25,698 nt of DNA. Source: a virus. Location: positions 1-25,698 of IMG/VR virus record IMGVR_UViG_3300045921_000200; one strand, 5' to 3'. A program made the position numbers and the translations under genes. This document shows, one piece after another, positions 1 through 25,698 of this stretch. The notes under the pieces were generated by a model. It did no database searches. It was not told the origin of the DNA and saw nothing but the letters and a program-made list of their open reading frames with translations. Every line of letters starts with the position of its first letter. Position 1 is the stretch's first letter.

Positions 1-143
1 GTTAATGATGTAATAATTTTGTGCGGGAACTTTTTTCCGTGTGATTGTGATCAGGGCACAATCTACCAGCTTCTTCTCTATTCTGCGTTGTGCCTTAAGC
101 TTAATCAGAGTCGTCTTTTTTATTTTTTCTCTGGTTATCGTGA
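1..143. repeat. Terminal overlap, left copy (circular genome closure)
   Basis: Bases 1-126 are identical to 25556-25681, and 127-143 align without gaps to 25682-25698 with five mismatches (127, 129, 131, 133, 139). The minus-strand frame of the replication initiator continues through the joint in both copies. This is the usual signature of a circular or circularly permuted phage genome assembled as a linear contig. A true short terminal repeat is the alternative. Confidence 0.9.
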
Positions 144-315
144 ACTCTTCGTTTTCTGTCAGCCTATTGGTCGCTTCGAAGTATCTGTATTCATCTATGA
201 GAATTGATAGATATCCCGCCGCCTCTAGCCCTAGCTTGGCGATTAGTGTTTTGTTGAGCACTATGTAATTAGTGCTGGCTAGTGTGTTGATTATTAGATT
301 CTTTTTTGCGTTCAT
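1..315 (-). CDS. Replication initiator, N-terminal DNA-binding part (continues at 25555 across the junction)
   Basis: The minus-strand reading starts at ATG 315-313 and is open to base 1. It continues in frame at 25555 down to the stop at 24950, giving about 306 residues. These first 105 residues look like the winged-helix domain of phage replisome organisers and initiators: 'NYIVLNKTLIAKLG', 'AAGYLSILIDEY', then 'LIKLKAQRRIEKKLVD' and the wing 'LITITRKKVPAQNYYIIN'. No Shine-Dalgarno is present; the start is preceded by 13 A/T-rich bases after a long hairpin (329-396). The role is inferred from the fold, the iterons inside the gene and the loader-like next gene. The contig boundary cuts the gene, so neither half should be read as truncated. 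Confidence 0.8.
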   Translation of the reverse strand, partial: MNAKKNLIINTLASTNYIVLNKTLIAKLGLEAAGYLSILIDEYRYFEATNRLTENEEFTITREKIKKTTLIKLKAQRRIEKKLVDCALITITRKKVPAQNYYIIN

Positions 316-19918: not shown

Positions 19919-20317
19919 TTAGCTCTTTTTTCTCAAAATGAGAAAATGGGTGTGGTACTGCTCTACCGACTTACCCGAATGCTTGGCGAAGTTGAGGAAT
20001 ATATGTGTATCGGGGTCGTAATATTTCGAAAATTCTATGAATAGATGGGCTATCATATCTTCACGGTCATATATCTCCGTAGATGTGTACTCCATTATGC
20101 TTTTTTTGAGGGAAAAATCGCAAATAAGGAAGTGGTGCAATACCTCCATACCCTCGTATTCTGTGTAGGGGTATCGATTCTCTATTACATAGTGCGTAGC
20201 ATTGCTGTAGAGAATTTTATTTTTGCCGGGATGCAATGGTTGCACAGCCTGCGAGGCTATCCGACTATATTCCGCCTCAGATATTGCCCGCATCATTGGA
20301 ATAATAACCCCTATCAT
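19919..20317 (-). CDS. HIT-superfamily protein with Q-x-H-x-H motif (up to 132 aa)
   Basis: The order 'THYVIENRYPYTEYEG', 'LHHFLICDF', 'HSGKSVEQYHTHFLIL' follows the HIT (histidine triad) nucleotide-binding fold: an N-terminal strand with 'n.yPY', then 'H.li', then the triad. Here the triad reads Q120-Y-H122-T-H124, so the first His is Gln while the central nucleophilic His remains. Such proteins hydrolyse or transfer nucleotides from phospho-anhydrides or phosphoramidates. A phage copy might process modified nucleotides or signalling dinucleotides; that is inference. Three in-frame ATGs (20317, 20296, 20293) are possible; the shorter ones reduce the overlap with the upstream gene. Confidence 0.7.
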   Translation of the reverse strand: MIGVIIPMMRAISEAEYSRIASQAVQPLHPGKNKILYSNATHYVIENRYPYTEYEGMEVLHHFLICDFSLKKSIMEYTSTEIYDREDMIAHLFIEFSKYYDPDTHIFLNFAKHSGKSVEQYHTHFLILRKKS

Positions 20318-24259: not shown

Positions 24260-24847
24260 TTATATATTACCAGAATTCTGCTCGTAATATCTCCTCACTA
24301 TTGCCCGCACCTCATCTATCACGGCGTCATGGTGTATATGTGCCACCTTCTCATATACCCCATCAGAGTTGAATTCGTTGGTTGTGTAATACTCCGTCCT
24401 GTGCTTCTCGATTATCCTGTGGAATTCCTGCTTATTCGTTTCGAATATCGCAAGAGTCAGGAATCCTCGGAATTCCTCCCGAAGCCTTAGATCTAAGAAT
24501 AATCTGTACTCATTACCCCCCTTATGCCAACGTTCCCGGACGGGAGACCGCTTGGGTATATACACCCTATTACTCACAGATATTATCTGGTGTGGTGGCT
24601 TATTCGCCGCCTTTTTGTTTTTCGTAATTCGATAAAATTCGGAAAAAATATTCATTGCCTCGTTGAGATTTCGGGGTTTTTGGGTGTTATCTCTCACCAT
24701 CTGTGCATAGGCTTCTTCAGCAATCTCGGGGTCATAGCTAGAAAGTCTGCTTGCGTACGCACTGAGATTTTTTTGCATAATTGGCATCTTCACTCCGAAG
24801 TGTTCACAGAGCGAGCTGATTATGCTTGTTATTGCTTTGGTTTCCAT
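24260..24847 (-). CDS. Probable helicase loader / replisome protein (195 aa)
   Basis: The N-terminal 75 residues ('ITSIISSLCEHFGVKMPIMQ', 'YDPEIAEEAYAQMVRDN', 'KPRNLNEAMNIFSEF') have the helical pattern of G39P-like phage helicase loaders and related replisome proteins. The C-terminal half ('EYRLFLDLRLREEFRGFL', 'VIDEVRAIVRRYYEQN') is helical and unassigned. It directly follows the initiator gene, where phage loaders (lambda P position) are found. No phage helicase exists here, so it would load the host enzyme. Confidence in the coding region is high, in function moderate. Confidence 0.65.
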   Translation of the reverse strand: METKAITSIISSLCEHFGVKMPIMQKNLSAYASRLSSYDPEIAEEAYAQMVRDNTQKPRNLNEAMNIFSEFYRITKNKKAANKPPHQIISVSNRVYIPKRSPVRERWHKGGNEYRLFLDLRLREEFRGFLTLAIFETNKQEFHRIIEKHRTEYYTTNEFNSDGVYEKVAHIHHDAVIDEVRAIVRRYYEQNSGNI

Positions 24848-24949: not shown

Positions 24950-25698
24950 TCAACCCACTCCCGCCGACAACGCATTCGGATTAATTATATTGGCGATTGC
25001 CTCCTCCATCGCCCTCATATGTGCCTGTCTATCCTCAATATCTTGCCGATAGAATGTCTTGGGCTTGCCCACAGCGTCCGCCCTGGCAAGGTACGCTTCT
25101 TCACGCATCGTTCGCAAGAATTCCCCGTAGCTCCGCATTATCCAATTCCTCATGAACAGTTTGAAGTCTTTCTTTTTTTTGCTTTTAGGGATGGAATTAT
25201 GCCATTCCTTAGCCGTTTCTAGTTCGTTAATCAGAAATTGTTCCGTGATTCTTGGGAAGAGTTGTTGAAGTTCTGCTAGATAATGATTCAGGTTGTCGGG
25301 GTTGTCCAGGTAATAATCAAAGTCAGAATCGTCAATGTGTCTCTTTTCTGTGTGTGTGTATATTATATTATTATTATTATAGTTATTATTATAGTTATTA
25401 TTATGTAAGATGTTCCCTTTTGGCACTTCTAGATGTTCCCTTTTGGCACTTCTAGATGTTCCCTTTTGGCACATCTGGATGTTCCCTTCCGGCACATCTG
25501 GTTGTTTTGCATTTTCTGTGTGTGTGTGTTCCATCATCTTGATTAACGCGTCTGTGTTAATGATGTAATAATTTTGTGCGGGAACTTTTTTCCGTGTGAT
25601 TGTGATCAGGGCACAATCTACCAGCTTCTTCTCTATTCTGCGTTGTGCCTTAAGCTTAATCAGAGTCGTCTTTTTTATTTTATATATTGTTATAGTGA
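24950..25698 (-). CDS. Replication initiator, central and C-terminal part (with second copy of the terminal overlap)
   Basis: This continues the gene that begins at 315. The methionine at 25537 is internal, since the frame is open through 25555 into the N-terminal part. After the winged-helix domain comes a low-complexity stretch encoded by the iterons and the AT-rich element ('HNNNYNNNYNNNN'), then a C-terminal domain. 'LNHYLAELQQLFPRITEQF' and 'AKEWHNSIPKSKKKKDFKLF' with 'MRNWIMRSYGEF' resemble the end of phage replisome organisers. The origin-in-gene layout copies lambda O. The stop (24952-24950) is followed by the loader promoter. Bases 25556-25698 repeat the start of the window. Confidence 0.8.
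   Translation of the reverse strand, partial: TITIYKIKKTTLIKLKAQRRIEKKLVDCALITITRKKVPAQNYYIINTDALIKMMEHTHTENAKQPDVPEGNIQMCQKGTSRSAKREHLEVPKGNILHNNNYNNNYNNNNIIYTHTEKRHIDDSDFDYYLDNPDNLNHYLAELQQLFPRITEQFLINELETAKEWHNSIPKSKKKKDFKLFMRNWIMRSYGEFLRTMREEAYLARADAVGKPKTFYRQDIEDRQAHMRAMEEAIANIINPNALSAGVG
25358..25409. other. AT-rich element beside the iterons (probable DNA unwinding element)
   Basis: A stretch of nearly pure A/T contains two copies of AGTTATTATTAT (25381-25392, 25393-25404) preceded by a related TTATTATTATTAT. It abuts the iterons and translates to an Asn/Tyr run, so it seems kept for DNA composition. This layout is what replication origins use for melting. Confidence 0.65.
25410..25501. 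repeat. Four 23-bp iterons inside the initiator gene (probable origin)
   Basis: Units lie at 25410-25432, 25433-25455, 25456-25478 and 25479-25501. Units 1 and 2 are identical; 3 and 4 differ at a few positions. Because 23 is not a multiple of three, successive units are read in different frames and code for unrelated peptides (VPEGNI, MCQKGT, SAKREH, VPKGNI). Selection therefore acts on the DNA, as at the lambda ori within gene O. Confidence 0.8.
25556..25698. repeat. Terminal overlap, right copy
   Basis: It matches 1-143. The last 17 bases carry all five differences; in the initiator frame they change TITREKIKK to TITIYKIKK without a stop. Confidence 0.9.

Follow-up and report, generated by a model that had tools for sequence, protein, structure and literature searches.

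The DNA between positions 25358 and 25499 of the 25,698-nucleotide viral stretch analysed here (the window) is, with a probability of roughly 0.9 as judged from its sequence, a phage replication origin embedded in the gene of its own initiator protein. The best reading is that this origin resembles the lambda origin in its working and lies outside the lambda O sequence family.

The virus record is 25,698 bp long and its bases 1–126 are identical to 25556–25681, so that the initiator frame continues across the contig ends. The final 17 bases diverge, as positions 25682–25698 differ from 127–143 after this perfect 126-bp end overlap, and the record probably represents a circular genome, its end affected by strain variation or misassembly. 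As a 25,555-bp circle, it carries a minus-strand frame that opens with an ATG at 315, ends with a stop at 24950 and encodes 306 amino acids. The features of this locus are:

1–315, minus strand: 5′ part of the initiator gene, codons 1–105, encoding the winged-helix DNA-binding domain (AlphaFold2 pLDDT 89, RepA_N-like fold)
24950–25555, minus strand: remainder of the initiator gene, joining 1–315, encoding the linker (iterons and A/T element) and then the C-terminal domain
25477–25499, minus strand: iteron 1, AGATGTGCCGGAAGGGAACATCC (coding strand, 5′ to 3′), most distant from the A/T element
25454–25476, minus strand: iteron 2, AGATGTGCCAAAAGGGAACATCT, self-complementary at 8/11 positions about its A-tract
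25431–25453, minus strand: iteron 3, AGAAGTGCCAAAAGGGAACATCT
25408–25430, minus strand: iteron 4, same letters as iteron 3, adjoining the A/T element
25358–25404, no strand: probable DNA unwinding element, 47 bp, 93.6% A+T, with 12-mer repeats
24260–24847, minus strand: gene next downstream of the initiator, sitting where a helicase loader would, without family or fold match

The four adjoining 23-bp repeats (iterons) reported in a preliminary description of this DNA are real, occupying 25408–25499, and none would be expected by chance. TRF detected an array of period 23 bp at 25408–25506 (4.3 copies, 93% matches), in which the four full-length copies, without gaps, share 19–23 of 23 bases in pairwise comparisons. 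A 21-mer iteron core, searched with up to three mismatches, has four sites in the window, all of them in the array, where shuffled sequences lead one to expect none. Repeats and A/T element both lie, as described, in one minus-strand open frame (24950–25696), with the iterons taking up codons 124–154 of the initiator gene, approximately 370–460 nt 3′ of the start codon. Copies 1 to 4 begin in frames 2, 1, 0 and 2, and because the 23-bp unit is out of frame the encoded peptide does not repeat. The exception is copies 1 and 4, which are in the same frame and encode DVPEGN and EVPKGN.

The A/T element adjoins the repeats, but its earlier description as 52 bp of almost pure A/T is accurate for the inner 44–47 bp only: the A+T content is 95.5% in the inner 44 bp (25361–25404) and 90.4% in the 52-bp version (25353–25404). 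The 12-mer repeats attributed to this element were recovered by TRF as 2.8 copies of TTATTATTATAG, in frame with the initiator coding sequence. By nearest-neighbour energy, the lowest stability of any 45-bp or 60-bp segment in the entire 25,555-bp circle is found at this element, which supports a function at the DNA level. A search for DnaA boxes (TTATNCACA) found none, against 1.15 expected, and we do not claim a DnaA-trio-like reading of the A/T triplets, because coding triplets confound them.

Cumulative GC skew reaches its minimum between about 25151 and 237 and its maximum near 20242. The sign switch looked for at this locus is therefore present, but it coincides with a switch in gene direction and is thus confounded, being no more than consistent with an origin, and third-position skews are inconsistent from gene to gene. 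The gene at 2025–2645, the only minus-strand gene of the rightward arm, still has a plus-strand skew above zero (0.066), a slight argument for replication as the source of the skew. A stretch of its product beginning SMNLNQN appears phospholipase-D-like by eye, with no Pfam match above threshold.

The N-terminal domain of the initiator is recognised by the profiles phrog_428 (3e-7, ‘replication initiation protein’), phrog_7882 (1.2e-5, ‘DnaD-like helicase loader’) and phrog_9773 (1.7e-4, ‘replication initiation O-like’), while the C-terminal domain lies outside the profile matches to phrog_428 and phrog_9773. An AlphaFold2 model of residues 1–105, built from 41 aligned sequences (pLDDT 89), found its best solved-structure matches in 4pql, 4pt7 and 5kbj, with Z scores from 10.2 (4pql, rmsd 2.6 over 90 residues) to 9.2 (5kbj). 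We take 4pql and 4pt7 to be of the RepA_N group. The same group includes 5kbj, a plasmid initiator domain with its iteron DNA bound (PMC7145576). The modelled fold is therefore closest to RepA_N plasmid initiators (the N-terminal domains of pSK41 and pTZ2162 RepA), a match that by itself is no proof of RepA_N membership. The winged-helix profile, searched against PDB sequences, had no significant match. The initiator did not match PF04492 or TIGR01610, the models of the lambda O N-terminal domain, which lambda O itself matched at 5.7e-36 and 5.4e-39, nor the RepA_N profile PF06970 at an E value of 0.1, which the RepA protein of Fusobacterium phage phiHugo matched at 6.3e-10.

Repeats bound by an initiator could also form an autoregulatory operator or a copy-number/incompatibility array, acting by repression or handcuffing, with replication starting elsewhere. 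Regulatory sites too are typically dyad-symmetric repeats, and in iteron plasmids the iterons that bind the initiator often act both in the origin and in regulation. Handcuffing has been summarised previously (PMC5703833). Nevertheless, the array studied here lies inside the gene, some 370–460 nt past the start codon and away from the promoter, and adjoins the DNA of lowest stability in the genome, and most relatives have A/T-rich DNA on this side as well. We consider a regulatory array with its origin elsewhere highly unlikely.

Relatives of the initiator were gathered by winged-helix protein similarity, blind to repeats, with the exception of an Oscillospiraceae element (CATKAZ010000168.1, L074), which entered through a match to the iteron-encoded peptide and was then itself used as a query. 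We determined the best direct-repeat lag, among lags of 16–40, in the 240 nt 3′ of the conserved winged-helix motif. This lag was exactly 23 bp in 18 of 28 initiator families, the window included, whereas a codon-shuffle null gives 3.3% per family, equivalent to 0.9 families at lag 23. The corresponding binomial p values (~2e-20, or 8e-18 without the window and L074) are descriptive, as the families are related to one another. Lag 23 was significant in 16 families and other lags in four, while control segments taken from other ORFs of these loci had lag 23 in 2 of 121 cases. The representatives of the two largest families were off 23, yet 19/25 and 7/12 of their members were significant at this lag. 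Lag 23 was not the best in 10 of the 28 families, among them those of Eggerthella PMBT5 and Flavobacterium FPSV-S2, indicating that the 23-bp rule either is not universal or has been eroded there. The prediction that related phages would conserve the 23-bp spacing while the protein drifts was thus borne out, and a function at the DNA level is supported by relatives that keep the spacing while both iteron letters and protein change.

These comparisons are of distant sequences. A single-sequence search with the initiator in IMG/VR found no relative and the exact iteron core had no match there; as no close initiator relative was found, conservation was tested at long distance only. A blastn search with the array gave no match among plasmids and one among phages, in phiHugo repA. 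Near-exact iterons in 198 genomes of the family of the Oscillospiraceae relative were limited to its own contig and one site with two mismatches (L094), which we took as chance, since an ABC-transporter-like ORF dominates that locus and it has no 23-bp array.

Besides spacing, the relatives share an iteron grammar. Cyclic shifts of 19 family consensus 23-mers, leaving out L074 (a near copy) and L065 (too short), gave an alignment with 12.4 bits of information, against 6.7 ± 0.2 after position shuffling, and none of 60 shuffles reached 12.4. The pattern is AAC-(T/A)-(A/G)-G, then approximately seven variable bases with the first arm among them, then AAA(A/T) and the second arm. Most iteron letters differ between families; common to them are the A-tract with its inverted arms and the AAC-T/A-A/G-G element. 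The dyad centred on the A-tract is 73% complementary, compared with a mean of 26% (s.d. 11%) over all centres. In 17 of 21 families the DNA 3′ of the array is richer in A/T than the DNA 5′ of it, and the 3′ side often has short repeats of its own. A shared grammar and A/T-rich DNA usually on the same side again speak for function at the level of DNA. In several Gram-negative and uncultured members (L086, L092 and L070) the element 3′ of the iterons is made of short ATTACAGAGACTAC-type repeats and is not pure A/T; these repeats encode an ITE-TT-rich peptide. By eye, all families with GG-AAAA-CC arms (L068, L070, L084, L086, L087 and L092) have (A/N)-R-K in the presumed recognition helix and the A/T-armed families do not, an association which may reflect one clade.

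Relatives that share this organisation include initiators matching the ‘replication initiation O-like’ PHROGs (phrog_428, phrog_678 and phrog_9773), found in phages (the Lactobacillus LL-Ku group, Fusobacterium phiBB, E. coli SaltyDalty and Vibrio phages) and plasmids (of Parageobacillus, Bacillus and Marinobacter). They have winged-helix homology to the window initiator, in-gene 23-bp iterons of the same grammar and, 3′ of these, A/T-rich or ACTAC-type short repeats; the window has both the phrog_428 and phrog_9773 N-terminal match and the 23-bp in-gene iterons of this group. It differs in the iteron arms (GTGCC/GGGAAC), and these initiators have other C-terminal domains and partner genes (DnaC-like, DnaB-like or primase/helicase). 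The Oscillospiraceae element, a mobile one, has five 23-bp iterons, the best copy being identical to that of the window at 22 of 23 bases, followed by an A/T tract that contains 15-mer repeats. The winged helix of the element is just ~29% identical, and its C-terminal domain is DUF6017, as in plasmid genes so annotated. Positions 2000–2115 of this locus may be either part of a chimeric initiator or a separately acquired origin, and a serine-recombinase-like ORF was seen nearby by eye.

A natural swap was observed in Lactobacillus delbrueckii phages (L003, L005, L006 and L008), whose initiator is a mosaic with winged helix and iterons exchanged against the C-terminal domain. Phages Ld17 (L005) and Ld3 (L006) are identical over the last 95 residues (95/95) but share 61/96 winged-helix residues and 25/56 linker residues, while LL-Ku/Ld17 and Ld3/Ld25A have near-identical winged helices, similar linkers and differing C-termini. 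Winged helix and linker change together between Ld17 and Ld3 and are kept together in the other two pairs; the iterons therefore travel with the DNA-binding domain. Repeats altered while the protein is kept had been named as the observation that would speak against an origin; the opposite is seen here, as the repeats change with the DNA-binding domain.

This co-variation also bears on whether the array could be a partition (centromere-like) or packaging site that lies in the initiator gene by chance. Tandem repeats are also found at parC/parS and at some pac sites. Furthermore, parC-like iterons occur in a phage (PMC6669507). However, no partition gene was recognised among the scanned window proteins, the array changes together with the initiator's own DNA-binding domain in the Lactobacillus phages, and it is found together with the initiator gene in phages and plasmids whose hosts are unrelated, making such a site even less probable than a regulatory array. 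There is a similarly slight chance that the repeats have no function as DNA and arose by slippage in an unconstrained disordered linker or by selection on an Asn-rich peptide, as the linker they encode is indeed low-complexity and Asn-rich and the 12-mer of the A/T element is in frame, but the 23-bp unit is out of frame and its peptide unrepeated, a period of 23 with a common dyad-centred grammar recurs in far more families than the 0.9 expected and seldom in control ORFs (2/121), and an Oscillospiraceae iteron is 22/23 identical despite a winged helix of ~29% identity.

An origin inside the initiator gene has precedents in two studied systems. Lambda O binds as dimers to iterons within its own gene, and the minimal unwinding unit comprises two iterons and the A/T region (PMC7466680). 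The window has the lambda architecture of tandem dyad iterons in the initiator gene followed by an A/T-rich element, and the resemblance extends to position (lambda codons 116–144, window codons 124–154), to the four copies, to A/T-rich DNA on the 3′ side and to dyad iterons around an A-tract (CCCTC-AAAA-CGAGGG in lambda). In contrast, lambda iterons are 18 bp long and spaced 20, 24 and 23 bp, where the window has a constant 23, their letters are different and the AAC-T/A-A/G-G element is not apparent in them. ‘Lambda-like’ is thus a fitting term for the layout and probable mechanism and not for membership, as the initiator matches neither lambda O domain model. In pSK41, the central part of rep contains the origin with its four Rep boxes, and the part of the protein encoded there, a linker, is dispensable (PMC5703833). 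Most RepA_N iterons are semi-palindromic and converge on a poly-A tract (PMC7145576), as do those within the window's initiator gene. The window initiator differs in having no PF06970 match, which phiHugo has. The RepA of this phage is similar in its N-terminal RepA_N/HTH domain, iterons with CCAAAAGGGAAC and AAT-rich tract, but its repeats are 24 bp long and in frame (L095:1163–1906). The window element therefore shares its architecture with both lambda and RepA_N origins and by sequence falls in neither Pfam family.

From the anatomy of the window and these studied relatives (lambda, pSK41 and RepA_N) we infer a possible mechanism. A dimer of the N-terminal winged helix would bind each 23-bp iteron by contacting the inverted arms on either side of the A-tract, and four adjoining complexes at a fixed 23-bp pitch would form one nucleoprotein complex. 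This complex would strain and open the A/T element on the coding-strand 3′ side, after which the C-terminal domain and neighbouring replication proteins could recruit the host helicase. The repeat-encoded linker peptide would then be a by-product of the constraint on the DNA.

Searches of Pfam, PHROG, NCBIfam, AlphaFold2 models and Foldseek gave no confident identity for the neighbouring gene at 24260–24847, and an assignment as an SPP1 G39P-type loader is unsupported by any of them. Just upstream of the initiator start lies a perfect 14-bp inverted repeat, CGACTATTAAGAGG, at 329–342 and 383–396; the minus-strand RNA has a folding energy of −33 kcal/mol (z −3.6), and the repeat is possibly a leader hairpin, an operator or an attachment site. 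Scans for tRNAs and Rfam families found nothing, and host assignment through the terminase gave distant matches only, spread over many hosts.

A broader generalisation, which we favour with some reserve, is that these initiators form a broad superfamily, carried by phages and plasmids with hosts among Bacillota, Pseudomonadota, Fusobacteriota and uncultured organisms, sharing a code for in-gene origins: 23-bp iterons with an invariant A-tract and AAC-T/A-A/G-G element, and variable inverted arms which set specificity together with the recognition helix of the winged helix. Origins within initiator genes are already known and it is the fixed 23-bp rule that may be new; the part of the open literature covered, to which the search was confined, yielded no apparent description of a constant 23-bp pitch with an AAC-TAG element for O-like initiators, and the generalisation is probably novel.

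For this unclassified 25.6-kb phage, the analysis locates a probable replication origin. It also provides a search rule, namely a winged helix of the KG(V/I)PAK type with a 23-bp lag immediately downstream and A/T DNA after that, which brings out candidate origins in numerous uncultured phages and in some plasmids. Constant spacing in spite of drifting letters and protein points to a constraint of pitch on how the initiator multimer is seated on DNA, and since winged helix and iterons change as a pair, the specificity between initiator and origin becomes testable. If the proposed code is true, origins could be read from the DNA-binding domain or reassigned through it, and the sequences of uncultured phages would predict their incompatibility specificity.
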